Positions 42,733 through 59,227 of a stretch of DNA of 64,000 bases are shown here, piece by piece. The position numbers were made by a program, and so were the translations under genes. The DNA lies in contig JAAWSV010000008.1 of NCBI GenBank assembly GCA_022801715.1, positions 1 to 64,000 on the forward strand, written 5' to 3'. The stretch's first letter is position 1. Every line of letters starts with the position of its first letter. The notes beneath the pieces are model-generated. The model saw only the letters and a list, made by a program, of their open reading frames with translations, was not told where the DNA came from and ran no database searches. This DNA comes from Oscillospiraceae bacterium. Lineage in GTDB: Bacteria; Bacillota; Clostridia; Oscillospirales; Oscillospiraceae.

Positions 42733-44643
42733 TCAGAACCGCTGCCGCACCCGGCCCGGCTGCTCCACCTGATAGCCGCCCAAGGTCTCCAGCCGGCGGC
42801 GGAAGTCCGCGCCGCCCAGCACCGCCAGCAGCTTCTGTACAGGCGGCGTGTCAAAGGCACTGTCGGGAATCAGAAGGTCGTACTGCTCCATGCAGATGGG
42901 CAGGAAGTCCAAGCCGTACAGCTTCGCCGCCGAGTAGATGCCCATGCCGGCGTCGGCGGTACCGGAGGCAATTTGAGCGGCTACAGAGGTGTGGGTGAAC
43001 TCCTCCCGGTCGTAGCCATAGATGCCCCTCAGGTCGATGCCCTGTTTTTTTAAGAGGTAGTCGATTAGAATCCGTGTGCCGGAGCCCTTTTGGCGGTTCA
43101 CATATCGCAGACCCTCCCGGCACAGGTCCTCAATGCCGTTAAGCCCCAAGGGGTTACCCTTGGCCACCATCAGTCCCTGCGTCCGGCCCACGCACTCCAC
43201 CAGACGGACGCCGCCGGCGGGGAAGTATTTTTGGATAAAGGCCGTGTTGTAGCTGCCGTCCTCCTCGCTGAGGAGGTGGATGCCGGCGATGTGTGTCTCC
43301 CCCCGGCGGACGGCCATGATGCCGCCCATGGACCCCGCATGGGTGGAGCTCATGTAGAAGGAGGGGTCTGCCAGATGCAGCAGATCCGCCGCCTCGTCCA
43401 AGAGGGGATCGTGGCTGCCGATAGCCACCAGCGTGTTTTGCAGCGCCTCCGCCGGGCGGAGCAGCCGCACCTCCACGGTGCTGCCCACCTCATAGCCCTC
43501 CACCCCTTGGGGGATCTCTAAGATTCCGTCGGCCTTCATGAAGGAGGACACCACGCCGCTGCCCCGGCCCAAGGGGGAGGCCATCAGCCTGCCGTTTACC
43601 GCGCCTAAGCGTACCCGGACGAACTCCTGATACTTGAGTCCGGATACCACCGACCGGGATAGGGTGGCCTGCCGGATTGTCTCCGTCTGGGGCACGGTGT
43701 GAAACCAGCTGTCCAACAGGGGCTTCAGCAGCTCCGTCAGCACGAAGATGCCGGATACCGGATAGCCGGGCACTCCGAGGATGGGCTTGTTTTCTCTTGC
43801 CCCCAGGATGGCGGGCTTGCCGGGCTTGATGGCGATGCCGTGGCACAGCACCTCCCCCGTCTCCCGGATCACCTCGGCGGAGTAGTCCTCCCGTCCGGCA
43901 GAGGACCCGGCGTTCAACAGCACGATGTCACACACCGCCAGCGCCTCCGCCAGCGCCGCCCGGAGGGCCTCCTTTTTGTCCGGCACGATGGGGAAGGTCT
44001 TAGGCTCCGCCCCCCACTGCCGCAGCATGGCGGAGAAGATGGAGGAGTTGAACTCCACAATGTCCCCCGGCTTGGGGTTTGCCGTGGGTGGGACGATTTC
44101 GTCCCCGGTAGGGATGATCCCCACCACGGGGCGGCGGAGCACCGGCACTTCCAGTACCCCGGCGGCCAGCATGGCCCCGACAGCGGCGGGGGAGACTTCC
44201 GTGTGGGAGGGCAGGATCATCTCCCCGGCGCAGATGTCCTCCCCGATCTGCCGGATGTGCTGCCAAGGGGCGGCGGCGTCATAGAGGCGGGCGCTCCCGT
44301 CCTCCTGCCACATCACGTCCTCCACCATCACCACCGCGTCGCAGTCCTCGGGAACCGGGTCCCCGGTGTCCACCACGGTGAACTGGCCGGGGGAAAGCGT
44401 CACCGGCGTGGTCTCGCTGGCCCCAAAGGTCTGCTCTGCGGACAGCGCGATGCCGTCCATGGCGCTGGCAGGGTAGTGGGGGGCGCAAATGGCGGCATAC
44501 ACCGCTTGGGCGGTGATTCGCCCACAGGCATCGGACACAGGGACGGTCACCGCCGGGGCGGTGAAGCCCTGGGAGAGCAGATGGGCGAGGTAGGTCTCCC
44601 GGGCCTCCTCTAAAGGGATGTTGGTCAGATACTGAAACGGCAT
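42733..44643 (-). CDS. MoeA-like molybdopterin protein fused to PBP-like domain
   Basis: N-term MoeA DACGRITAQAVYA..VVDTGDPVPEDCDAVVMVEDV..IIPTGDEIVPP; C-term PBP-like ..ASSTHAGSMGGIMAVRRGETHIAGIHLLSEEDGSYN. Confidence 0.9.
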   Translation of the reverse strand: MPFQYLTNIPLEEARETYLAHLLSQGFTAPAVTVPVSDACGRITAQAVYAAICAPHYPASAMDGIALSAEQTFGASETTPVTLSPGQFTVVDTGDPVPEDCDAVVMVEDVMWQEDGSARLYDAAAPWQHIRQIGEDICAGEMILPSHTEVSPAAVGAMLAAGVLEVPVLRRPVVGIIPTGDEIVPPTANPKPGDIVEFNSSIFSAMLRQWGAEPKTFPIVPDKKEALRAALAEALAVCDIVLLNAGSSAGREDYSAEVIRETGEVLCHGIAIKPGKPAILGARENKPILGVPGYPVSGIFVLTELLKPLLDSWFHTVPQTETIRQATLSRSVVSGLKYQEFVRVRLGAVNGRLMASPLGRGSGVVSSFMKADGILEIPQGVEGYEVGSTVEVRLLRPAEALQNTLVAIGSHDPLLDEAADLLHLADPSFYMSSTHAGSMGGIMAVRRGETHIAGIHLLSEEDGSYNTAFIQKYFPAGGVRLVECVGRTQGLMVAKGNPLGLNGIEDLCREGLRYVNRQKGSGTRILIDYLLKKQGIDLRGIYGYDREEFTHTSVAAQIASGTADAGMGIYSAAKLYGLDFLPICMEQYDLLIPDSAFDTPPVQKLLAVLGGADFRRRLETLGGYQVEQPGRVRQRF

Positions 44644-44700
44644 AGCAAGCACCTCTTTATACGATCAAATATGGATAATAATCTATTTATTTACAGCCTT

Positions 44701-45173: not shown

Positions 45174-46394
45174 TCACTCCACCCCATAGGGCCACACCTG
45201 CACCGTAGTCCCGGCGGGGAGCCCCTCGCAGTCCCGATGGATGCAGAAGCACCCGTCAGACCCGGCCAAGGCGGTGATGAGCCCGGACTTTCCCCGGATG
45301 GGTTTTGCGTACCGGACACCGTCCTCCTCAAAGAGGAACACCCCCATGTACTGGGCCCGCCCGTGGTTGGCACTGACGGCCTCGGTGAGCACCGCGGGCA
45401 CTGTATATCCCCGGAGACTCTGCCCCGTCAGCCGCAGCAGCAGGGGGCGCACCAGAAGCCGGGCCACAAAGAAGGCCGCCGCCGGGTGCCCCGGCAGTCC
45501 AAAAACCGGCCTGCCCTCCACATCGCCTAAGATCGTGGGTTTGCCGGGCTTCATGGCCAACCCGTGAAGCAGCACCGTCCCACGGCTCTCGATCACGCGG
45601 CAGGTGGCGTCTTTCATCCCCACGGAGCTGCCGCCGGAGATCAGGATCACGTCACAGCGGGTCAGCGCCTCATCCAGCGTCCGGCCCAGCAGGTCCTCGT
45701 CGTCCTTCAGGATCCCCAAGGACACCGCCTCCGTTCCGGCTTCCTCCACCAGCGCGGAGAGCATGGCGGAGTTCACATCCCGCACCTGCCCCGGCCCGGG
45801 GATAGTATCCACCGGTACAAGCTCGTCCCCGGTGGAGAGGATGCCTACCACCGGCCGCCGGCACACGCTTACTGTGCCCACGCCCATAGCGGCTAAGGCT
45901 CCAATGTCCTGTGCTCCCAGCCGCCGTCCGGCCTCCAGCACCACCTGTCCGGGTTTTACGTCGTCTCCCTTGAAGATGAGATTGCTCCCCGGTGCGGCGC
46001 TCTTGCAGATGCCCACGGTGCCGTCGCCGTAGTCCTCGGTGTACTCCACCATCACCGCCGCGTCGGCTCCCTCCGGGATGGCGCCGCCGGTGGGCACCGC
46101 AGCGCAGCAGCCGGGACCAAGCGCCCCACCGGCTCCCTCACCCATGGCGATCTCCCCTTGGACGGTGAGGATGGCGGGGATGGCCTCAGAGCAGCCGAAG
46201 GTGTCCGCAGAGCGGACAGCGTAGCCGTCCACGGTGGAACGATCAAAGCCGGGGACGAACTCCGACGCCATGACGGCCTCGCAGAGTACCCGGCCCCGGG
46301 CGGCGGAAAGAGGGACTGCCTCCCCCTCCGGGCGGGGCGGGAAGGAGGACTCCAGCAGCGTCAGGGCCTCTTCCGGTGTTTTCACAGTGAGCAT
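45174..46394 (-). CDS. moeA: Molybdopterin molybdotransferase MoeA
   Basis: FVPGFDRSTVDGYAVRSADTFG; GILSTGDELVPVDTIPGPGQVRDVNSAML; SGGSSVGMKDAT. Confidence 0.93.
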   Translation of the reverse strand: MLTVKTPEEALTLLESSFPPRPEGEAVPLSAARGRVLCEAVMASEFVPGFDRSTVDGYAVRSADTFGCSEAIPAILTVQGEIAMGEGAGGALGPGCCAAVPTGGAIPEGADAAVMVEYTEDYGDGTVGICKSAAPGSNLIFKGDDVKPGQVVLEAGRRLGAQDIGALAAMGVGTVSVCRRPVVGILSTGDELVPVDTIPGPGQVRDVNSAMLSALVEEAGTEAVSLGILKDDEDLLGRTLDEALTRCDVILISGGSSVGMKDATCRVIESRGTVLLHGLAMKPGKPTILGDVEGRPVFGLPGHPAAAFFVARLLVRPLLLRLTGQSLRGYTVPAVLTEAVSANHGRAQYMGVFLFEEDGVRYAKPIRGKSGLITALAGSDGCFCIHRDCEGLPAGTTVQVWPYGVE

Positions 46395-48584: not shown

Positions 48585-49061
48585 ATGAAACAACTCTTGA
48601 TCAAACCTGAGAAATGTATCGGCTGCCGCACCTGTGAGCTGGTCTGCTCCTTCGGACACTACGGCCAGTTCAATCCGAAGCTGGCTAATGTAAAGGTGTT
48701 TGAGTATGAGCAGGCGGCGGTGGCCATCCCCCTGATGTGCTTACAGTGTGAGGATCCCTCCTGCATGAAGGTCTGCCCTGTGCACGCCATCAGCCGGGAC
48801 GAAAACGGCGCGATGGTCATGAATTATGACAAGTGCATCGGCTGCAAGATGTGCCTGAACGCCTGCCCCTTGGGCAACATCTCCTACCACCCGGCGGTGA
48901 AGAGGGTGTTCAAGTGCGACCTCTGCGGCGGTGAGCCCAAGTGCGCCCGGTACTGCCCCGGTGGTGCCATCGAGTTTGTGGAGACCGACACCGTGGACCA
49001 GCGGCGCAAAGCCGTCAGCGACCGGTATAAGGACCTGATCGGAGAGGGGGCGGCAGAATGA
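48585..49061 (+). CDS. 4Fe-4S dicluster ferredoxin subunit of AOR
   Basis: CIGCRTCELVC, CLQCEDPSCMKVCP, CIGCKMCLNACP, CDLCGGEPKCARYCP; GTG start at 48552 also possible. Confidence 0.9.
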   Translation: MKQLLIKPEKCIGCRTCELVCSFGHYGQFNPKLANVKVFEYEQAAVAIPLMCLQCEDPSCMKVCPVHAISRDENGAMVMNYDKCIGCKMCLNACPLGNISYHPAVKRVFKCDLCGGEPKCARYCPGGAIEFVETDTVDQRRKAVSDRYKDLIGEGAAE

Positions 49062-50860
49062 ATAACGGATACATTGGCACCATTTTGCGTGTGAACTTAA
49101 AGACCGGTTCCATCCGCACCGAGCCGCTGAACGCCAAGAACGCCGACGAGTATGTGGGCGCCAGAGGACTTGGCACCAAGTACTACTGCGACGAGTGTGA
49201 CCCCAAGTGTGACGCCTTAGGGCCGGACAACAAGCTGATCTTCATGACCGGCCCTCTCACCGGCACCATGGCCACCTCCTCCGGCCGCTACAACGCCGTG
49301 GCCAAGTCCCCCCTCACCGGCACCATTGGCGCGGCCAACTCCGGCGGCCACTTCGGCCCGGAGCTGAAGTACGCCGGGTATGACGGCATCATCTTCGAGG
49401 ATATCTCCGATAAGCCGGTGTACCTGTACATCAATGACGGCACTGTGGAGCTGCGGGACGCCTCCCACCTGTGGGGCAAGGATGTGTTTGAGACCACCGA
49501 GGCCCTGTACGAGGAGTGCGGCGACAACTTCCGTGTGGCCTGCATCTCCGCCGCCGGAGAGACCGGGTGTCTCTTCGCCGGCATCATGAACGACAAGCAC
49601 CGGGCTGCTGGTCGCGGCGGTATGGGTGCGGTGATGGGCAGCAAGAAGCTGAAGGCTGTGGCAGTAAAGGGTACGGGCAGCGTCCTTGTGGCCCGGCCAG
49701 AGAAGTTCTTTGAGGAGTGCACCAAGGCCCGCGATACCCTGAAGGCCCATCCGGTCACCGGGGCCGGCCTCTCCGCCTTCGGCACTATGATTCTGGTGAA
49801 CATCGTCAATGGTGTGGGCGGCCTGCCGGTAAACAACGGCCGGGACGGCTCCCTCTTCCCCCAGGCCGACGATATCTCCGGCGAGAGCCTGACGGCCAGG
49901 CATCTGATCCGCAACAAGGGGTGCTTCGGCTGTTCCATCGGCTGTGGCCGCCTTACCGAGATCAAGTCCGGGGCCTTCAAGTCCAAGGGCGAGGGTCCGG
50001 AGTACGAGGCCGGCTGGTCCTTCGGCGCTGACTGCGGCGTCAGCGACTTGGGCGCCGTCTGCAACGCCAACTTCCTCTGCAACCAGTACGGCATCGACCC
50101 CATCACCATGGGCGCCACGGTGGCCTGTGCCATGGAGCTCTTTGAGATGGGCGCCATCACCGAGGCCGAGGTGGGTTTCCCCCTGCGCTTCGGTGACGCC
50201 GCGGCCATGGTCAAGGCCACCGAGATTACCTGCAAGGGTGAGGGCTTCGGCAGGATCATGGGCCTTGGGTCCTACCGTATGGCGGAGAAGTACGGCCACC
50301 CCGAGCTCTCCATGAGCGTCAAGAAGCAGGAGATGCCCGCCTACGATGGCCGCGCCATTCAGGGCATCGGTCTGGAGTATGCCACCTCCAACCGGGGTGG
50401 CTGCCACGTCCGCGGTTATATGATCTCCCCGGAGGTCTTGGGCATCCCCATGGCCATGGACCCCTTGGTGACCAAGGATAAGCCCGCCACGCTGAAGCTG
50501 TTCCAGGATCTCACCGCCCTGTGTGATGCCACGGGTATCTGCCTCTTTACCACCTTCGGCATCGGACTGCCCGAGATCGCCGGCATGTACCGGGAGGCTG
50601 TGGGCAGCGACGAGAGCGACGCGGAGATCCTGCTCAAGGGTGAGCGGATCTGGAATCTGGAGAAGCAGTTCAACATCGCCGCCGGCGTGGAGAAGGACAC
50701 CCTGCCGCCGCGGCTCCTGCGGGAGAAGCTTCCCGAGGGTCCCGCTCAGGGCAAGGTCAACGAGCTCCATGAGATGCTCAAGGAGTACTATGCCGCCCGC
50801 GGCTGGACCGAGGAGGGCGTTCCCACCGAGGAGAAGCTGAAGGAGCTTAGCCTCACCTGA
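49058..50860 (+). CDS. Tungsten-type aldehyde:ferredoxin oxidoreductase family
   Basis: NGYIGTILRVNLKTGSIRTEPLNAKNADEYVGARGLGTKYYCDE; AAGRGGMGAVMGSKKLKAVAVKGTG; GCFGCSIGCGR. Confidence 0.95.
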   Translation: MNNGYIGTILRVNLKTGSIRTEPLNAKNADEYVGARGLGTKYYCDECDPKCDALGPDNKLIFMTGPLTGTMATSSGRYNAVAKSPLTGTIGAANSGGHFGPELKYAGYDGIIFEDISDKPVYLYINDGTVELRDASHLWGKDVFETTEALYEECGDNFRVACISAAGETGCLFAGIMNDKHRAAGRGGMGAVMGSKKLKAVAVKGTGSVLVARPEKFFEECTKARDTLKAHPVTGAGLSAFGTMILVNIVNGVGGLPVNNGRDGSLFPQADDISGESLTARHLIRNKGCFGCSIGCGRLTEIKSGAFKSKGEGPEYEAGWSFGADCGVSDLGAVCNANFLCNQYGIDPITMGATVACAMELFEMGAITEAEVGFPLRFGDAAAMVKATEITCKGEGFGRIMGLGSYRMAEKYGHPELSMSVKKQEMPAYDGRAIQGIGLEYATSNRGGCHVRGYMISPEVLGIPMAMDPLVTKDKPATLKLFQDLTALCDATGICLFTTFGIGLPEIAGMYREAVGSDESDAEILLKGERIWNLEKQFNIAAGVEKDTLPPRLLREKLPEGPAQGKVNELHEMLKEYYAARGWTEEGVPTEEKLKELSLT

Positions 50861-50876
50861 GTATTGGAAATACCAG

Positions 50877-50908
50877 ACCGGAAGCGGTGAAAAACCGCTT
50901 CCGGTTTT
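50877..50908 (+). terminator. Attenuator-like hairpin between AOR and moaD
   Basis: accggaagcgg-tgaaaaa-ccgcttccggtttt. Confidence 0.6.
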
Positions 50909-50930
50909 GGTGCGTTGTATAGGAGGTACC

Positions 50931-51212
50931 ATGACTGTCCAATTCTTTGCCTATCTCCGGGATGCGGAATACGCCGGCTGCAAGAGTACCCCATGGCCCT
51001 GCACGCCTACCCTCCGCTGCTTGGGGGAGGCGCTGTGCGAGGCCTACGGCCCCAAGTTCCGGGGCGAGTTTTTCTCCCCCGATGGCGCGGACTTGGGGGA
51101 GCGGGTGATCGTCATGGTCAATGGCCGGCGGGTGGAGTTTTTGGACGGGTTGGACACGCCGCTGAAGGACAGCGACACCGTGCTGATCTTCCCGGTGGTG
51201 GCCGGTGGTTAG
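50931..51212 (+). CDS. MoaD/ThiS-family sulfur carrier protein
   Basis: Small beta-grasp protein ending VVAGG; SD aggagg. Confidence 0.85.
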   Translation: MTVQFFAYLRDAEYAGCKSTPWPCTPTLRCLGEALCEAYGPKFRGEFFSPDGADLGERVIVMVNGRRVEFLDGLDTPLKDSDTVLIFPVVAGG

Positions 51213-51431
51213 AGGCCGTCTGGCTCGCTTTATCGGGATTTCGGAACTATTCAACTTCAATATGTGTCGAAATTGATGAATATGTGTTAGAAAGTGATAC
51301 AATTTTTGAAAAAATGAAAAAACCGCAAAAAACGCGTAAAAAACGGCAAAAACCCCGCTGTTTTTGAGAAAAAAGGCGGGGGTGTTGCACGCGCGGACAG
51401 CGCGGCTAAAACGGAAAAGGCGGTGATGCGT

Positions 51432-51908
51432 ATGCAGATATCCCACGAGGAGATTCAAGTGCTCCTGCGGCAGTACCCCCAGGAGCAGCGGTACTGTTTA
51501 GCCATCATGCAGGACATGCAGCGTCAGTACAACTATATCCCGCGGGAGGGGATGGAGGCGCTGTCTGAGTACCTCAGTTGTCCCCTATCCTCCCTCTACT
51601 CCATGGCGACCTTCTACAAGGCGCTGAGCCTCAAGCCCAAGGGCAAGCATATTATCAAGCTCTGCGACGGCACGGCCTGCCACATCCGGGGGGCCAATAC
51701 CCTCTGTGACGCGGTCCGCCGGCTGTTGGGCATCGAGGCGGAGGAGACCACGGAGGACGGGCTGTTCTCCCTGGAGCTGGTGAACTGCTTGGGTTCCTGT
51801 GCTCTGGCGCCGGTGATGGTGGTGGACGACACCTACTACGGCAAGATGACCATGGAGAAGCTTCCTGGCATCCTGGAGAAGTATCGGGAGGAGGCGACGG
51901 CAAAGTGA
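51432..51908 (+). CDS. NuoE-like 24 kDa [2Fe-2S] subunit
   Basis: CDGTACHIRGANTLCDAVRRLLGIEAEETTEDGLFSLELVNCLGSCALAPVMVVDDTYYG. Confidence 0.93.
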   Translation: MQISHEEIQVLLRQYPQEQRYCLAIMQDMQRQYNYIPREGMEALSEYLSCPLSSLYSMATFYKALSLKPKGKHIIKLCDGTACHIRGANTLCDAVRRLLGIEAEETTEDGLFSLELVNCLGSCALAPVMVVDDTYYGKMTMEKLPGILEKYREEATAK

Positions 51909-53695
51909 GGACCATTCGTGTCTGCTGCGGCACCGGGTGCCTGGCCAACGGCAGTGCCAAGGTGGCGGCGGAGTTTGAGCGGCTTACCGCCGGCTCCGAG
52001 GTGCAGGTGGAGTGCCATGTGAAGCGTACCGGCTGCAACGGTTTCTGTGAGAACGGACCGCTGGTGACCATCTTTCCCGATGATATCTCCTACTACCGGG
52101 TGAAGGTGGAGGATGTGCCGGAGATCCTGGAGAGAACCATCGGAAAAGGGGAGCTGGTGGAGCGGCTTCTCTACAGGAATGACAGGGGGGAGCGGGTCCG
52201 CAGTCAAAGCGACAACCCCTTTTACGCCCCCCAGAAGAAGATCGCCCTCCGGAACATCGGCAGGATTGAGCCGGCCAATGTGGACGACTATCTGGCCTCC
52301 GGCGGGTATGAGGCGCTGAAGAAGGCCCTCACCATGACGCCGGAGGAAATTCTGGATGAGATGGACGCCTCCGGCCTCCGGGGCCGGGGGGGCGCGGGCT
52401 TTCCCACCGGGCAGAAGTGGCGCACAGCGGCGGGCTACGACGTGTCCCCCAAGTACGTGGCCTGCAACGGCGACGAGGGGGACCCGGGGGCCTTTATGGA
52501 CCGCTCCATTTTGGAGGGCGACCCCCACAGTGTGCTGGAGGGCATGGCCATCTGTGCCTTGGCCATCGGCGCGGAGGAGGGGTTCCTCTACATCCGGGAC
52601 GAGTACGCCCTGGCGGTGCAGAACGTAAGGGCCGCCATTGCCGCCGCTGAGGAGCGGGGCATCTTGGGCGACAGCATGATGGGCAGCGGCAGGAAGCTCC
52701 ACCTCTCGGTGGTCCGGGGGGGCGGCGCCTTTGTCTGCGGCGAGTCCACCGCCCTGATGGCCTCCATCGAGGGACGGGTGGGGGAGCCGAGGGCCAAGTA
52801 CATCCGGTCGGTGCAGCGGGGCCTGTGGAACCACCCCACGGTGCTCAACAACGTGGAGACACTGGCCAACGTCCCCTACATCATTGCCCACGGCGGCGCC
52901 CACTACGCCAGCGTGGGCACCGAGGGCAGCAAGGGTACCAAGGTCTTTGCCCTGGTGGGCAAGGTGAAGCGCACGGGGCTGGTGGAGGTGCCCATGGGGG
53001 CCACCCTGCACCACCTCATTTACGACATCGGCGGCGGCGTTCAGAATGACCGGCCCTTCAAGGCCGTCCAGACCGGCGGACCTTCCGGCGGGTGCATCCC
53101 GGAGAGTATGCTGGACCTGCCGGTGGACTTCGATACCCTGAAGCAGTACGGGGCCATGATGGGTTCCGGCGGCATGATCGTCATGGATGACCGCAGTTGT
53201 ATGGTGGAGGTGGCGCGGTACTACGTCAGCTTCCTCTGCGGCGAGAGCTGCGGCAAGTGTACCCCCTGCCGGGAGGGGCTGAAGCAGATGCTGGCCATCC
53301 TTACGGACATCTGTGAGGGCCGGGGAACCATGGAGGATCTGGACCTTCTGGAGCAGCTGGGGGAGACCATGCAGGACAGCTCCCTCTGCGCCCTGGGCAA
53401 GTCCGCCCCCAATCCGGTGCTCACCACGCTGAAATACTTCCGGGAGGAGTATGAGGCCCATATCAGGGAGCACCGGTGCGGCGCCGGGGTGTGCAAGGCC
53501 CTGACGAGCTTCTCCATCGACCCCGCCGCCTGCAAGGGCTGCGGCGCCTGTAAGCGGGCCTGCCCCGCCGGGGCGGTGTCCGGGGACGTGAAGCAGCCCC
53601 ATGTCATCGACCAGACCAAGTGCATCCGCTGCGGCAGCTGCCGGGAGGCCTGCCGGTTCGGCGCGGTGCTGACCAAGGGGAGGGATGAACAATGA
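51905..53695 (+). CDS. NuoF-like NADH-binding flavoprotein subunit with C-terminal ferredoxin domain
   Basis: GLRGRGGAGFPTGQKW; CNGDEGDPGAFMDRSILEGDPH; ESCGKCTPCREGLKQM; CKGCGACKRACP, CIRCGSCREACRFGA. Confidence 0.95.
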   Translation: MRTIRVCCGTGCLANGSAKVAAEFERLTAGSEVQVECHVKRTGCNGFCENGPLVTIFPDDISYYRVKVEDVPEILERTIGKGELVERLLYRNDRGERVRSQSDNPFYAPQKKIALRNIGRIEPANVDDYLASGGYEALKKALTMTPEEILDEMDASGLRGRGGAGFPTGQKWRTAAGYDVSPKYVACNGDEGDPGAFMDRSILEGDPHSVLEGMAICALAIGAEEGFLYIRDEYALAVQNVRAAIAAAEERGILGDSMMGSGRKLHLSVVRGGGAFVCGESTALMASIEGRVGEPRAKYIRSVQRGLWNHPTVLNNVETLANVPYIIAHGGAHYASVGTEGSKGTKVFALVGKVKRTGLVEVPMGATLHHLIYDIGGGVQNDRPFKAVQTGGPSGGCIPESMLDLPVDFDTLKQYGAMMGSGGMIVMDDRSCMVEVARYYVSFLCGESCGKCTPCREGLKQMLAILTDICEGRGTMEDLDLLEQLGETMQDSSLCALGKSAPNPVLTTLKYFREEYEAHIREHRCGAGVCKALTSFSIDPAACKGCGACKRACPAGAVSGDVKQPHVIDQTKCIRCGSCREACRFGAVLTKGRDEQ

Positions 53696-54432
53696 CGATC
53701 ACCATTAATGGGACTCCCTGCCAGTGTGAAAAAGGGGAGCTTCTGCTCCAGGTGGCCCGGCGGAACGGTTTTGAGATCCCCACCCTCTGCCACCATGACG
53801 CCATCGCCGGACAGGGCTGCTGCCGGCTCTGCATCGTGGAGGTGGTGGAGCGGGGGAGAGGCCGCATTGTGGTTTCCTGCCTGTTCCCGGTGGAGCACGG
53901 GTGTGAGGTCTATACCGACAGTGACAAGGTCCGGCGGCAGCGGGGGATGATCCTCCGCCTGCTGGAGAAGCGGGCCCCGGAGAGCCCGGAGATCCGTGCC
54001 CTCTGTGAGAAGTACGGCGCGCCGGAGATTGACCGGTTTGTGAAGGTGGACGGCAGTAAGTGCGTCCTCTGCGGGCTCTGCGTGAAGGCCTGCGGTGAGC
54101 TCAGCGTGGGGGCTATCTCCACGGTGAACCGGGGCGTGACCAAGGAGATTGCCACCCCCTACCACGAGCCAAGCAGCGTGTGCATCGGCTGCGGCAGCTG
54201 CGCCAGTGTCTGCCCCACCGGGGCCATCGAGGTCATCGAGACCGCGGATACCCGGACCATTTGGGGAAAGATTTTTAAGCTGGTCCGCTGCAAGCACTGC
54301 GGCGCGGTGATTGGTACCGCTGAGGAGCTGGCCTACGCGGCGAAGCGGTCCGGGCAGGAGCGTGACAACCTCTGCCGGACCTGCCGGCAGGCCCGGATGG
54401 CCGACACATTGGCCCATACCTTCGGGGAGTAA
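53692..54432 (+). CDS. NuoG/HndD N-terminal-like [2Fe-2S]/[4Fe-4S] subunit
   Basis: TITINGTPCQCEKGELLLQVARRNGFEIPTLCHHD..GCCRLCIVEV; CVLCGLCVKAC, CIGCGSCASVCPTGAI; no H-cluster domain. Confidence 0.9.
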   Translation: MTITINGTPCQCEKGELLLQVARRNGFEIPTLCHHDAIAGQGCCRLCIVEVVERGRGRIVVSCLFPVEHGCEVYTDSDKVRRQRGMILRLLEKRAPESPEIRALCEKYGAPEIDRFVKVDGSKCVLCGLCVKACGELSVGAISTVNRGVTKEIATPYHEPSSVCIGCGSCASVCPTGAIEVIETADTRTIWGKIFKLVRCKHCGAVIGTAEELAYAAKRSGQERDNLCRTCRQARMADTLAHTFGE

Positions 54433-54796: not shown

Positions 54797-55837
54797 ATGA
54801 AAAAGTCACTTGCATGGGTCCTTGCGCTGGTGATGCTCCTGAGCCTCCTCACTGGCTGCGCCAAGAACGACGGCGGGAATACCTCCGACAACCAGATACC
54901 CACCAATCAGACTGAACAGAACAATCCCCCTGTTGAGCCCGTTCCCGAGACGCCCACTGTGGACACCATGATCCTCAAAGAGGCGGACGACAAGATGATC
55001 AACACCTACACCCTCTTGGCGGTAAACCCTGACGCGCCCTTCACCGATGCCGACGGCAACGCGGTCAGCGGCGTGGCCATCAATACCGCCGGGGCTGAGG
55101 CCCTGATCCAGTGGCTGCTGTCCGACGAGGGGACGCAGATGGCCGCGGACTACGGTCAGGCGGACTTCGGCGACAGCCTGTTCTACCTGCTGGACGGCGC
55201 GCCCAAGTACGAGGGGGAGATCGCCAAGGCCACCGAGGAGACCAAGACCATCCGTCTGTCCACTACCACGTCGGTGAACGACTCTGGTCTTTTGGGGAAC
55301 CTGCTGCCGGTGTTTGAGAGTGAGTACGGCTACACTGTGGAGATCCAGTCCGCCGGTACCGGCAAGGCCATCGCCGCCGCCAAGTACGGCAACGCCGACC
55401 TGATTCTGGTCCACGCCAAGAGCCAGGAGGAGACCTTCGTCGCCGACGGCTTCTCCTATGTGCTGCCCGGCTTCGAGAGTGAGCGGCTCAGCTTCCTCTA
55501 CAACTACTTCGTCCTCTGCGGGCCCTCCGATGACCCCGCCGGGGTGAAGGAGATGGGGAGCGTGCTGGACGCCTTCGCCGCCATCGCCGGGGGGAAGTAT
55601 GCCTTCATCTCCCGGGGCGACGGCTCCGGCACCCACACCAAGGAGCTGTCCCTGTGGCCGGAGAGCCTAAATATCACCGCCGAGGCGGAGAGCTTTAAGG
55701 ACTACACCGACTGGTACACCTCCGCCAACGCCGGCATGGGCGCCTGCCTTGTGATGGCTGAGGAGATGCACGGCTATATCCTCACAGATAAGGCCACCTT
55801 CTTGACCTTCCAGGCCAACGGTGGTATTATGAACTAA
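54797..55837 (+). CDS. tupA: TupA-like tungstate-binding lipoprotein with apparently permuted segment order
   Basis: Lipobox LLTGC; TTTSVNDSGLLGNLLPVFESEYGYTVEIQSAGTGKAIAAAKYGNADLILVHAKSQEETFVADG; ISRGDGSGTHTKELSLW. Confidence 0.88.
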   Translation: MKKSLAWVLALVMLLSLLTGCAKNDGGNTSDNQIPTNQTEQNNPPVEPVPETPTVDTMILKEADDKMINTYTLLAVNPDAPFTDADGNAVSGVAINTAGAEALIQWLLSDEGTQMAADYGQADFGDSLFYLLDGAPKYEGEIAKATEETKTIRLSTTTSVNDSGLLGNLLPVFESEYGYTVEIQSAGTGKAIAAAKYGNADLILVHAKSQEETFVADGFSYVLPGFESERLSFLYNYFVLCGPSDDPAGVKEMGSVLDAFAAIAGGKYAFISRGDGSGTHTKELSLWPESLNITAEAESFKDYTDWYTSANAGMGACLVMAEEMHGYILTDKATFLTFQANGGIMN

Positions 55838-55930: not shown

Positions 55931-56617
55931 ATGCAGACGGCCCTGCAAAAGGCGCTGGCGCTGATCCTCAGCGGTGACCGGGAGCTGGGGAATATTTTGC
56001 TGGTGACGGCAAAGACCAGTCTCACCAGCTCCCTGATCGCCCTGCTGATCGGGGTGCCCCTGGGCATCTTTCTGGGGGCCAGCCGTTTCCGGGGGCGGCA
56101 GGTGCTGGTGATCCTCAACCGGACGCTGATGGGGATGCCGCCGGTGGTCTGCGGGCTGCTGCTGTACCTGCTGTTCTCCGGGGTGGGGCCCTTTGGAGGG
56201 TGGAAGCTGCTGTTCACAGTGCCCATCATGGTGCTGGCCCAGGTGCTGCTGATTACCCCTATTGTGGTGGGGAATTTGGAGACCTATGTCTCCGGTATCG
56301 CCCAGCCGGTGCGGGAGACCGCCAAGGGGCTGAATTTGGGGGCGGGGCGGACCTTTCTCCTGCTGGGGAATGAGTGCGTCTATCCCATCCTCTCCACCTA
56401 CCTGCTGGCCTTCGCCCGGGCCATTGCCGAGGTGGGGGCGGTGTCCATGGTGGGTGGGGCCATCGCCTGGAAGACCAACGTGATGACCACCGCCATTATG
56501 CAGTACACCAACCGGGGGAACTTCTCCTTAGGGATTGCGCTGGGGATGATTCTGATGGTGCTGTCCTTGGTGGTCAACATTTTGGTGTCACTGCTGCAAA
56601 GGGGGTTGGGGCGGTGA
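55931..56617 (+). CDS. tupB: Tungstate ABC transporter permease
   Basis: ETAKGLNLGAGRTFLLLGNECVYPILSTYLLAFARAIAEVGAVSMVGGAI EAA-loop region; adjacent to tupA. Confidence 0.92.
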   Translation: MQTALQKALALILSGDRELGNILLVTAKTSLTSSLIALLIGVPLGIFLGASRFRGRQVLVILNRTLMGMPPVVCGLLLYLLFSGVGPFGGWKLLFTVPIMVLAQVLLITPIVVGNLETYVSGIAQPVRETAKGLNLGAGRTFLLLGNECVYPILSTYLLAFARAIAEVGAVSMVGGAIAWKTNVMTTAIMQYTNRGNFSLGIALGMILMVLSLVVNILVSLLQRGLGR

Positions 56618-57288
56618 GGCTGCGCGGGTGTACCAAGTCTTTTGAGGGCGGCACAGTGCTCCGGTTCCCGGAGCTGACGCTGGAGCCGGGACAGATCTAC
56701 GCCGCCGTGGGGGCCAATGGCAGCGGGAAGTCCACCTTTGCCCGTTTGGCCGCCGGTGTGCTGCCGGCGGATCAGGGGGTGCGTGTGCTGGAGGGGGTGG
56801 ACGTGGGGTATATGCCCCAGAAGAGCTACGCTTTCCGGATGAGCACCCGGGCCAATGTGCTGCTCAGCGGCGGTGACGCGGCTCGGGCGGAGGAGCTGAT
56901 GAGAGCCTTGGGGCTGTCGGAGCTGTCGGGGAGACGGGCCAGCCGGCTCTCGGGAGGGGAGACCGCTAAGATGGCATTGGCGCGGGTACTGATGCGGTCC
57001 CACGACCTGCTGATTTTGGACGAGCCTACTGCCTCCATGGATATGGAGTCCGCCATGCTCACCGAGGAGCTGGTGGAGGCCTGCCGCCGGGAGACCGGGT
57101 GCGCGGTGCTGCTGATTACCCACGATCTCCAGCAGGCGCGGAGGATGGCGGATCGGGCGCTGTTCTTCTGCCGGGGGGAGCTGTGGGAGAGCGGCGAGGC
57201 GTCTAAGGTCCTCTATGAGCCGGAGCGGGCGGAGACTCGTCGGTTCTTGGACTTCTATGGGGGGAATGCGCTCGCGTGTTTCGACTGA
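56614..57288 (+). CDS. tupC: Tungstate ABC transporter ATP-binding protein
   Basis: GTG start at 56614; GANGSGKST, LSGGETAKMALARVLM, LLILDEPTASMD. Confidence 0.92.
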   Translation: MRLRGCTKSFEGGTVLRFPELTLEPGQIYAAVGANGSGKSTFARLAAGVLPADQGVRVLEGVDVGYMPQKSYAFRMSTRANVLLSGGDAARAEELMRALGLSELSGRRASRLSGGETAKMALARVLMRSHDLLILDEPTASMDMESAMLTEELVEACRRETGCAVLLITHDLQQARRMADRALFFCRGELWESGEASKVLYEPERAETRRFLDFYGGNALACFD

Positions 57289-57845: not shown

Positions 57846-58745
57846 TTAGAAGATCTCTGTTTCTGAAACGCACTGGGTTTTCAGCTTCCCCACCAGAAAG
57901 TCCAGCGCGTCCACCACGTGGGGGCGGATGTCGCCGCCGATAAGGACGTACATGATGTCCTCCCCCGGCAGGAGCTCACCCTCGTTCAGCCAGACCCGGA
58001 CGTGGTAGATACCGGGGAGGCGGCGGGCCTCCTCGGCGGCGGTCTCCGCCTTTTCGCTGTCGAAGGAGAAGCGCATGGCCCGAACGGCCCTGCCGGTCTG
58101 CGCGCCCTCCCGGACCTCCGCACGGGGTGTGGTCCGGACCACGCCGTTGTGGGTCAGGTACATGCCGATCTTCTCCGCCTCCGGACCGGCCTTGGCCTCC
58201 CGGAGCCACTGGTCCATGGAGGGGGGCGCCTTTTTGTGGACGTGGCCGTGGGGGACGGCGCAGTCCGCCGAACCGGCGGAGAGGAGCATGTCGATGCCGT
58301 GGCGGATGGACCCCAGCACCGCCGACAGGTTCTCCCGGGCGGCCTTCTCACTGCCGGGGAGGTTCACGATCAGCGTCCGGCCCCGGATGCCCGCCGCGCT
58401 GCGGGAGAGGCAGCCCCGGGGGGTGATCTTCATGCTCTCCGCGCGCATGGCCTCCGGGATACCCCGGGTCTCCCGCTCCACCACCGCCAAGGTGGCCTCC
58501 GGCGTCACGTCCCGGGGGGAGAAGCCGGTACCGCCGGTGGTGAGGATCAGGTTCACCCGCTTCTCGTCCGCACAGCGGATCAGAGCCTCCTGAATCTGCT
58601 GCTGTTCGTCGGGGAGGATGGCGGTGTCCGTCACCTCCCAGCCGTCGTCTTGGAGCATCCGGACGAGGGCGGGGCCGCTGGTGTCGGTCCGCTCCCCTCG
58701 GGCCCCCTTGTCGCTGATGGTCAGTACCGCCGCTGTGTAGCTCAT
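57846..58745 (-). CDS. MogA/MoaB molybdopterin adenylyltransferase fused to MoaE-like domain
   Basis: AAVLTISDKGARGERTDTSGPALV..LILTTGGTGFSPRDVTPEA; C-term GVVRTTPRAEVREG..YHVRVWLNEGELLPGEDIMYVLIGGDIRPHVVDALDFLVGKLKTQ. Confidence 0.85.
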   Translation of the reverse strand: MSYTAAVLTISDKGARGERTDTSGPALVRMLQDDGWEVTDTAILPDEQQQIQEALIRCADEKRVNLILTTGGTGFSPRDVTPEATLAVVERETRGIPEAMRAESMKITPRGCLSRSAAGIRGRTLIVNLPGSEKAARENLSAVLGSIRHGIDMLLSAGSADCAVPHGHVHKKAPPSMDQWLREAKAGPEAEKIGMYLTHNGVVRTTPRAEVREGAQTGRAVRAMRFSFDSEKAETAAEEARRLPGIYHVRVWLNEGELLPGEDIMYVLIGGDIRPHVVDALDFLVGKLKTQCVSETEIF

Positions 58746-59227
58746 GGTTCGTCCTCCCTTTGAAAGTCCCCGTGGACCCCGCCTGTCTTTTCAAGCAGGC
58801 GCAGATCCGTAATCACCATGTCCCGCTGTACCGCCTTGCACATGTCGTACACCGTCAGCGCCGCGGTGGCTGCCGCCGTCAGCGCCTCCATCTCCACCCC
58901 GGTGCGGCCCTGACAGCGGACCTCCGAGCGGATATCCACACAGCAGCGCGCCTCATCCAGGGTCAGTGTCAGGTCGATGCCGTCCACCGCCACCGGGTGG
59001 CACATGGGGATCAGTTCGGCGGTGCGCTTGGCTCCCATGATGCCGGCGATCTGGGCGGTGGTGAGCACATCTCCCTTTTTCATCCCGCCGCTGCGGATCA
59101 GCTGGAAGGTGTCCCGGTTCAGGAGCACCCGGACCCCTGCGACGGCAGTGCGGCGGGTGGGAGCTTTTTCGCCCACGTCCACCATTCGCGCCCGGCCTTG
59201 GTCGTTGAAGTGTGTAAAGTCCGCCAA
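58742..59227 (-). CDS. moaC: Cyclic pyranopterin monophosphate synthase MoaC
   Basis: ARMVDVGEKAPTRRTAVA..; KKGDVLTTAQIAGIMGAKRTAELIPMCHPV; EVRCQGRTGVEMEALTAAA. Confidence 0.95.
   Translation of the reverse strand: MADFTHFNDQGRARMVDVGEKAPTRRTAVAGVRVLLNRDTFQLIRSGGMKKGDVLTTAQIAGIMGAKRTAELIPMCHPVAVDGIDLTLTLDEARCCVDIRSEVRCQGRTGVEMEALTAAATAALTVYDMCKAVQRDMVITDLRLLEKTGGVHGDFQREDEP

Follow-up and report, generated by a model that had tools for sequence, protein, structure and literature searches.

A supported natural circular permutation of the tungstate-binding lipoprotein TupA, with an apparently single origin in Clostridia

Can a tungstate-binding lipoprotein carry the parts of TupA in rotated order? 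The question is raised by an open reading frame (ORF) in a 64,000-nucleotide stretch of DNA (hereafter, the window) from an Oscillospiraceae bacterium (contig JAAWSV010000008.1, assembly GCA_022801715.1). A preliminary description, made from the letters alone, had proposed that the protein is a natural circular permutation of TupA, with a possible change in hinge dynamics or in the placement of its lipid anchor. The ORF was found at its reported position with the residues that had been quoted (Table 1). We conclude, with a probability of roughly 0.87, that it encodes a naturally circularly permuted TupA, i.e., a membrane-anchored tungstate-binding lipoprotein feeding the TupBC transporter encoded downstream, which apparently originated once, in Clostridia.

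Table 1. Features of the permuted tupA gene and its neighborhood (window positions)
Feature	Position	Strand	Basis
Permuted tupA gene, 346 amino acids plus stop	54797-55837	+	ORF; NCBIfam TupA 130 bits; PBP_like_2 89.7 bits; PDB TupA matches
Signal peptide and lipobox LLTGC, Cys21 as lipid anchor site	54797-54859	+	Sequence; Cys21 invariant in 24 homologs
Disordered tether, residues 22-54, of variable length among homologs	54860-54958	+	pLDDT <50 over residues 20-42; homolog sequences
Moved segment, residues 55-133, homologous to conventional TupA C terminus	54959-55195	+	phmmer, segment HMM, BLAST; pLDDT 92-97 over most
Joining linker, 24 residues (131-154), old C terminus to old N terminus	55187-55258	+	Fixed length; A145, T146, and T149 invariant
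TupA core, residues 155-346, STTTSVNDSG to new C terminus TDKATFLTFQANGGIMN	55259-55834	+	phmmer, segment HMM, BLAST; fixed end
Oxyanion-site motif TTTS, residues 156-159 (T9-S12 of D. alaskensis TupA)	55262-55273	+	Alignment; invariant
His206 (His59 equivalent)	55412-55414	+	Alignment, homolog conservation, published site
Arg273 to Thr279 (Arg118 and Thr124 equivalents)	55613-55633	+	Alignment, homolog conservation, published site
Asp331 (Asp170 equivalent)	55787-55789	+	Alignment, homolog conservation, published site
tupB-type permease	55931-56617	+	NCBIfam ABC_perm1 174 bits, over cutoff; TupB 145 bits, under cutoff of 320
tupC-type ATPase, start overlapping tupB end	56614-57288	+	Pfam ABC_tran
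Tungsten-type aldehyde ferredoxin oxidoreductase (AOR/WOR large subunit)	49058-50860	+	Pfam AFOR_N, AFOR_C
MoaD/ThiS-type protein, putative start codon	50934-51212	+	Pfam ThiS 7.5e-12
NuoE-, NuoF-, and NuoG-type electron-transfer subunits	51423-51908, 51905-53695, 53692-54432	+	Pfam, NCBIfam
MogA/MoaB-type pterin cofactor gene	57846-58745	-	NCBIfam
MoaC	58742-59227	-	Pfam

The rotated order was confirmed: the segment that ends a conventional TupA (here, residues ~55 to 133) is at the N terminus of this protein. Two checks put forward in the preliminary description, alignment to characterized TupA chains and a survey of homologs for the same order, both returned this arrangement. A phmmer search against the PDB matched the TupA structures 3muq, 3lr1, 5my5, and 3kn3 (E values of 9.7e-43 to 2.3e-28) with the two parts in reversed order; residues ~150 to 341 aligned to the N-terminal part of the TupA chains and residues ~55 to 101 to the C-terminal part, these second stretches being weak when taken alone. 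The segment by itself was matched by BLAST to the C terminus of a conventional TupA, L114 (45% identity over 76 amino acids; E = 3.4e-12, computed with the database size set to 1e8). Over the core, L114 and the permuted protein are 55% identical, against 45% over the moved part. A hidden Markov model (HMM) built solely from the N-terminal segments of permuted homologs was then searched against the 3,759 ORFs of 148 loci. Every TupA ORF was matched except one truncated by the end of its contig, and all matched ORFs contained a TupA core. On conventional TupAs, the match lay at the C terminus, directly behind the core (best E value of 1.3e-15), and was weak (about 0.01 to 0.4) in a few divergent members. 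The fetched loci held 148 TupA-like ORFs, comprising 111 permuted (tail-core; some duplicates included, as a few genomes were sampled twice), 36 conventional (core-tail), and 1 with the core only; none carried the segment at both ends. Instead of the conventional linear order, with the TTTS strand first and the NPY/WL/LF segment last, the 111 permuted ORFs, which come from many independent assemblies, have the segment ahead of the core.

The junctions are as regular as the order. The linker between LFY, at the end of the moved segment, and STTTSV is exactly 24 residues long in all 103 sequences compared, and the protein ends 8 to 9 residues past TDKATFLT in 101 of 104; in contrast, the tether ahead of the moved segment varies in length among homologs. 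The preliminary description had placed the segment right after the lipobox. Its N-terminal position stands, but a low-complexity linker of ~33 residues (22 to 54) separates it from Cys21. The accompanying statement that the protein stops where the segment would conventionally begin is correct, with nothing following TDKATFLTFQANGGIMN before tupB at 55931. Because A145, T146, and T149 are invariant and the predicted confidence is high, the joining linker is probably a structured closure. Every segment of the parent protein is present once, in rotated order and with the old termini joined, as in a circular permutant. The proposal of a natural circular permutation is borne out by the homology that BLAST and the segment HMM detect between this N-terminal segment and the TupA C terminus, and it is supported jointly by sequence, same-order homologs, phylogeny, and structure prediction.

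AlphaFold2 modeling of the whole protein with 24 homologs gave a pLDDT of 84.6 and a pTM of 0.74, with about 50 disordered residues and block means of 92 to 97 over most of the moved segment. Residues 62 to 230 modeled alone (58 homologs) reached a pLDDT of 92.1 and a pTM of 0.88. This model unites the moved segment and the linker with the remainder of lobe A in one predicted domain. Foldseek, which keeps sequence order, aligned the part of lobe A that belongs to the core with TupA crystal structures, superposing ~69 residues at 0.6 to 0.9 Å. In the published numbering of D. alaskensis TupA (5my5 chain position minus 23), lobe A comprises residues 2 to 76 and 201 to 251, and lobe B comprises residues 91 to 200 (PMC5517513); Tyr201 corresponds to Tyr71 of the permuted protein in the phmmer alignment. 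Mapped by homology, the moved segment consists of a short lobe-B strand (57 to 61) followed by lobe A. Lobe B would then hold both this new N-terminal strand and the new C terminus, with lobe A running unbroken over about residues 71 to 230, versus two pieces in the conventional protein. The published lobe limits of 5my5 also point to a shift of the lipid anchor from lobe A to lobe B, in line with the change in anchor placement suggested earlier. The old C and N termini of lobe A would be joined by the fixed-length linker, and the chain would have been opened in lobe B after LTDKATFLT, ~13 residues ahead of its crossing back to lobe A. The tether would enter through the short lobe-B strand rather than the first strand of lobe A, the two interlobe chain crossings would be kept, and the oxyanion site would remain the same in sequence.

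The published oxyanion site of D. alaskensis TupA consists of T9 to S12, H59, R118, T124, and D170 (PMC5517513). All five corresponding positions (T156 to S159, H206, R273, T279, and D331) are invariant in 24 aligned permuted members. The permuted tupA heads a tupABC operon, and nearby genes encode MoaA, two MoeA proteins, a MoeB/ThiF-type protein, MogA/MoaB, and MoaC. One of the MoeA genes (42733 to 44652), which adjoins the second (45174 to 46394), has a PBP_like domain fused at its C terminus. Among permuted loci longer than 14 kb, TupB and TupC genes are present in 44 of 44, MoeA in 31, and an AOR relative in 22. No Rfam family, including the Moco/Tuco riboswitch, was matched in the window. 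The gene content resembles in part that of the class IV bifurcating WorLSABC enzymes (PMC13328260), in which an AOR large subunit is likewise found beside NuoE/F/G-type subunits and TupABC; the difference is that no separate WorS gene was identified near the AOR, MoaD, and NuoE/F/G genes (window positions 49058 to 54432).

From the site, the operon, and the genome context, we infer that tungstate is the best-supported ligand and that its import is the likely function of the permuted TupA. A tungsten-type AOR gene lies beside the transporter genes, and it is the one AOR found in the genome (93% complete). A search of this genome for ModA, WtpA, PF00384 molybdopterin oxidoreductases, and PF02738 enzymes matched none of them; at this completeness, such absences fall short of proof. 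TupABC has been tied to such aldehyde oxidoreductases in gut bacteria (PMC13328260, PMC11980592), and the imported tungstate would most likely supply the adjacent enzyme. Molybdate or another oxyanion is an unlikely ligand: TupA, ModA, and WtpA are related, and inserts of 7 to 11 residues in the permuted clade could alter the site, but the TupA-type site, including the Arg118 equivalent, is invariant, and the AOR is the sole Mo/W enzyme among the families searched in the bacterium's own genome.

A tree of 77 rotated sequences recovered the permuted proteins as one clade (SH-aLRT support of 100) with one change of state. This clade is nested within the conventional TupAs, grouping with L114, L028, and L029 (support of 98; midpoint root). 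A core-only TupA tree gave the same clade and one change, and a TupB tree separated permuted from conventional operons in the same way, the stem of the permuted group being long (about 1.08 changes per column); the TupA and TupB trees were quick searches with midpoint roots. The permuted order apparently arose once, in Clostridia. The presence of permuted genes in five or more families of the class might suggest several origins, which we consider improbable given the single fully supported clade, the matching TupB split, and the identical linker length; transfer or loss together with tupBC better explains the scatter. As to mechanism, we infer a tandem tupA duplication, in which the end of the first copy would have fused to the start of the second and the outer parts would have been lost. 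In that case, the post-lipobox spacer of the second copy would be the source of the joining linker. No permutation intermediates were found among the TupA-like ORFs of the fetched loci. Side-by-side TupA-like genes in two genomes (G583 and G678) were considered as tandem duplicates of the kind that could seed a permutation and were rejected, since the one inspected (L126, in G678) has the conventional order and looks like a regulator. L126 is a minus-strand ORF of 366 amino acids adjoining a conventional tupA, with its TupA-like domain behind a helix-turn-helix-like N terminus, and is probably an oxyanion-responsive regulator; its counterpart in G583 is similar.

Pfam PBP_like_2 (PF12849), the best Pfam model, scores 89.7 bits against a gathering cutoff of 27 and covers residues 146 to 340 only, and NCBIfam TupA (NF041772) scores 130 bits against an equivalog cutoff of 400 and covers residues 149 to 341. 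Such coverage could be read as that of a truncated TupA in which the C-terminal part of lobe A is missing and the N-terminal ~90 residues are an unrelated or duplicated domain. This is highly improbable, given the homology of the segment to the C terminus of conventional TupA, the lack of a second copy in all 111 ORFs, and the prediction that the segment and lobe A fold as a single domain. This homology and the end of the protein at TDKATFLTFQANGGIMN contradict the combination that the preliminary description had set against its own proposal, in which an unrelated N-terminal domain would accompany a full C-terminal lobe of the conventional kind. The shortfall from the 400-bit cutoff is partly due to the inability of a linear model to score both rotated parts in one alignment. 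With TupA at 130 of 400 bits and TupB at 145 of 320, orthology is not certified by the NCBI equivalog models.

Compared with conventional TupA (D. alaskensis 5my5, Geobacter 3lr1, and NF041772), the permuted protein shares homology along the whole chain once rotated, the TTTS motif and other site residues, and the arrangement of a lipoprotein followed by TupB and TupC. It differs in the rotation of its parts, the 24-residue closure linker, three clade-specific inserts, a score below the equivalog cutoff, and an anchor that homology places on lobe B. In all likelihood, the permuted protein is a descendant of TupA with the same mode of action, but it lacks two TupA hallmarks, the order and a score above the NCBI cutoff. 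The inserts, which permuted proteins share and conventional TupAs lack, lie near residues 80 to 91, 219 to 225, and 289 to 297 (window positions 54980 to 55690) and measure about 7, 8, and 11 residues relative to the conventional sister. Two cysteines, C241 (55517 to 55519) and C317 (55745 to 55747), are invariant across the 24 permuted proteins aligned; in L114, L028, and L029, the conventional sisters, only the second of them is present.

Among known proteins, the closest parallel is Tp0684 (MglB-2) of Treponema pallidum, a glucose-binding protein, likewise permuted and anchored, of the proposed "Cluster Bc," for which anchoring was raised as a possible reason (PMC4990184). Both are natural circular permutations of membrane-anchored ABC binding proteins with relatives in Gram-positive gut bacteria. 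Tp0684 differs in its type I glucose-binding fold, another cut, an added fourth lobe crossing, and a moved part that its authors described as poorly conserved (PMC4990184), whereas that of the permuted TupA is clearly homologous. The Pfam, NCBIfam, and PDB matches of the permuted TupA are of the TupA/PBP_like_2 type, with none to MglB, and place it outside Cluster Bc. Permutation relations within the two-lobed binding-protein fold, among glycine betaine-binding proteins, molybdate-binding proteins, and CysB, were also reported with CPSARST (PMC2395249). Those cases were detected by structure between remote proteins (<24% identity), whereas here the permuted protein and a recognizable conventional sister belong to a single transporter family. 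No description of a permuted TupA emerged from literature searches, largely outside subscription journals, that paired permutation with tungstate, TupA-type, or binding-protein terms.

With the close conventional sister L114 and the apparent single origin, the permuted TupA offers a natural experiment on chain topology and anchor position in a two-lobed binding protein. The permutation may possibly be functional, although we regard this as doubtful: the tether shift to lobe B and a continuous lobe A could change opening or permease docking, TupB having codiverged, in a distinct class of Clostridial tungstate importers below TupA annotation cutoffs. As the permuted TupA and its TupB fall far below the NCBI equivalog cutoffs, gut tungsten surveys using linear TupA models may undercount tungstate importers.

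Many Clostridia species of the gut and rumen have the permuted TupA. Of 251 sampled genomes from the family to which the window belongs, 26 (counting the window's own) gave a permuted-order match above 400 bits, and about nine others gave a clear conventional match. Scanning GTDB 220 with one genome per species yielded 379 stretches encoding relatives, of which the best 80 were all permuted and mostly from metagenome-assembled Clostridia, with labels including Oscillospiraceae, Lachnospiraceae, and Lawsonibacter, among others; a single Flavonifractor isolate was also among the sources. Outside the window's family, permuted genes were detected in a second family of the same order (L112 and L113) and, elsewhere in the class, in three more families (L120 to L122). 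A phylum sample of 398 genomes contained 186 with a TupA match; among the matches listed, none was permuted except the window's own. In these samples and among the best 80 of the 379 GTDB 220 relatives, no permuted protein came from outside Clostridia. The carriers are mostly metagenome-assembled genomes, but an assembly or frameshift artifact (e.g., a chimeric contig or a rearranged tandem repeat) is excluded by the single open frame, the fixed linker, and the recurrence of this order in 111 ORFs. These come from many independently assembled genomes, among them an isolate (Flavonifractor sp. An92; L091) and a one-contig genome (G078/L020). Some conventional TupAs in the fetched loci carry additional N-terminal sequence. 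Five members of one family (f46; L127, L129, L134, L136, and L140) have ~100 extra, SH3-type-like residues, and a divergent conventional TupA (L118) lies behind a LysM-like domain in a genome (G359) that also carries the permuted TupA L113.
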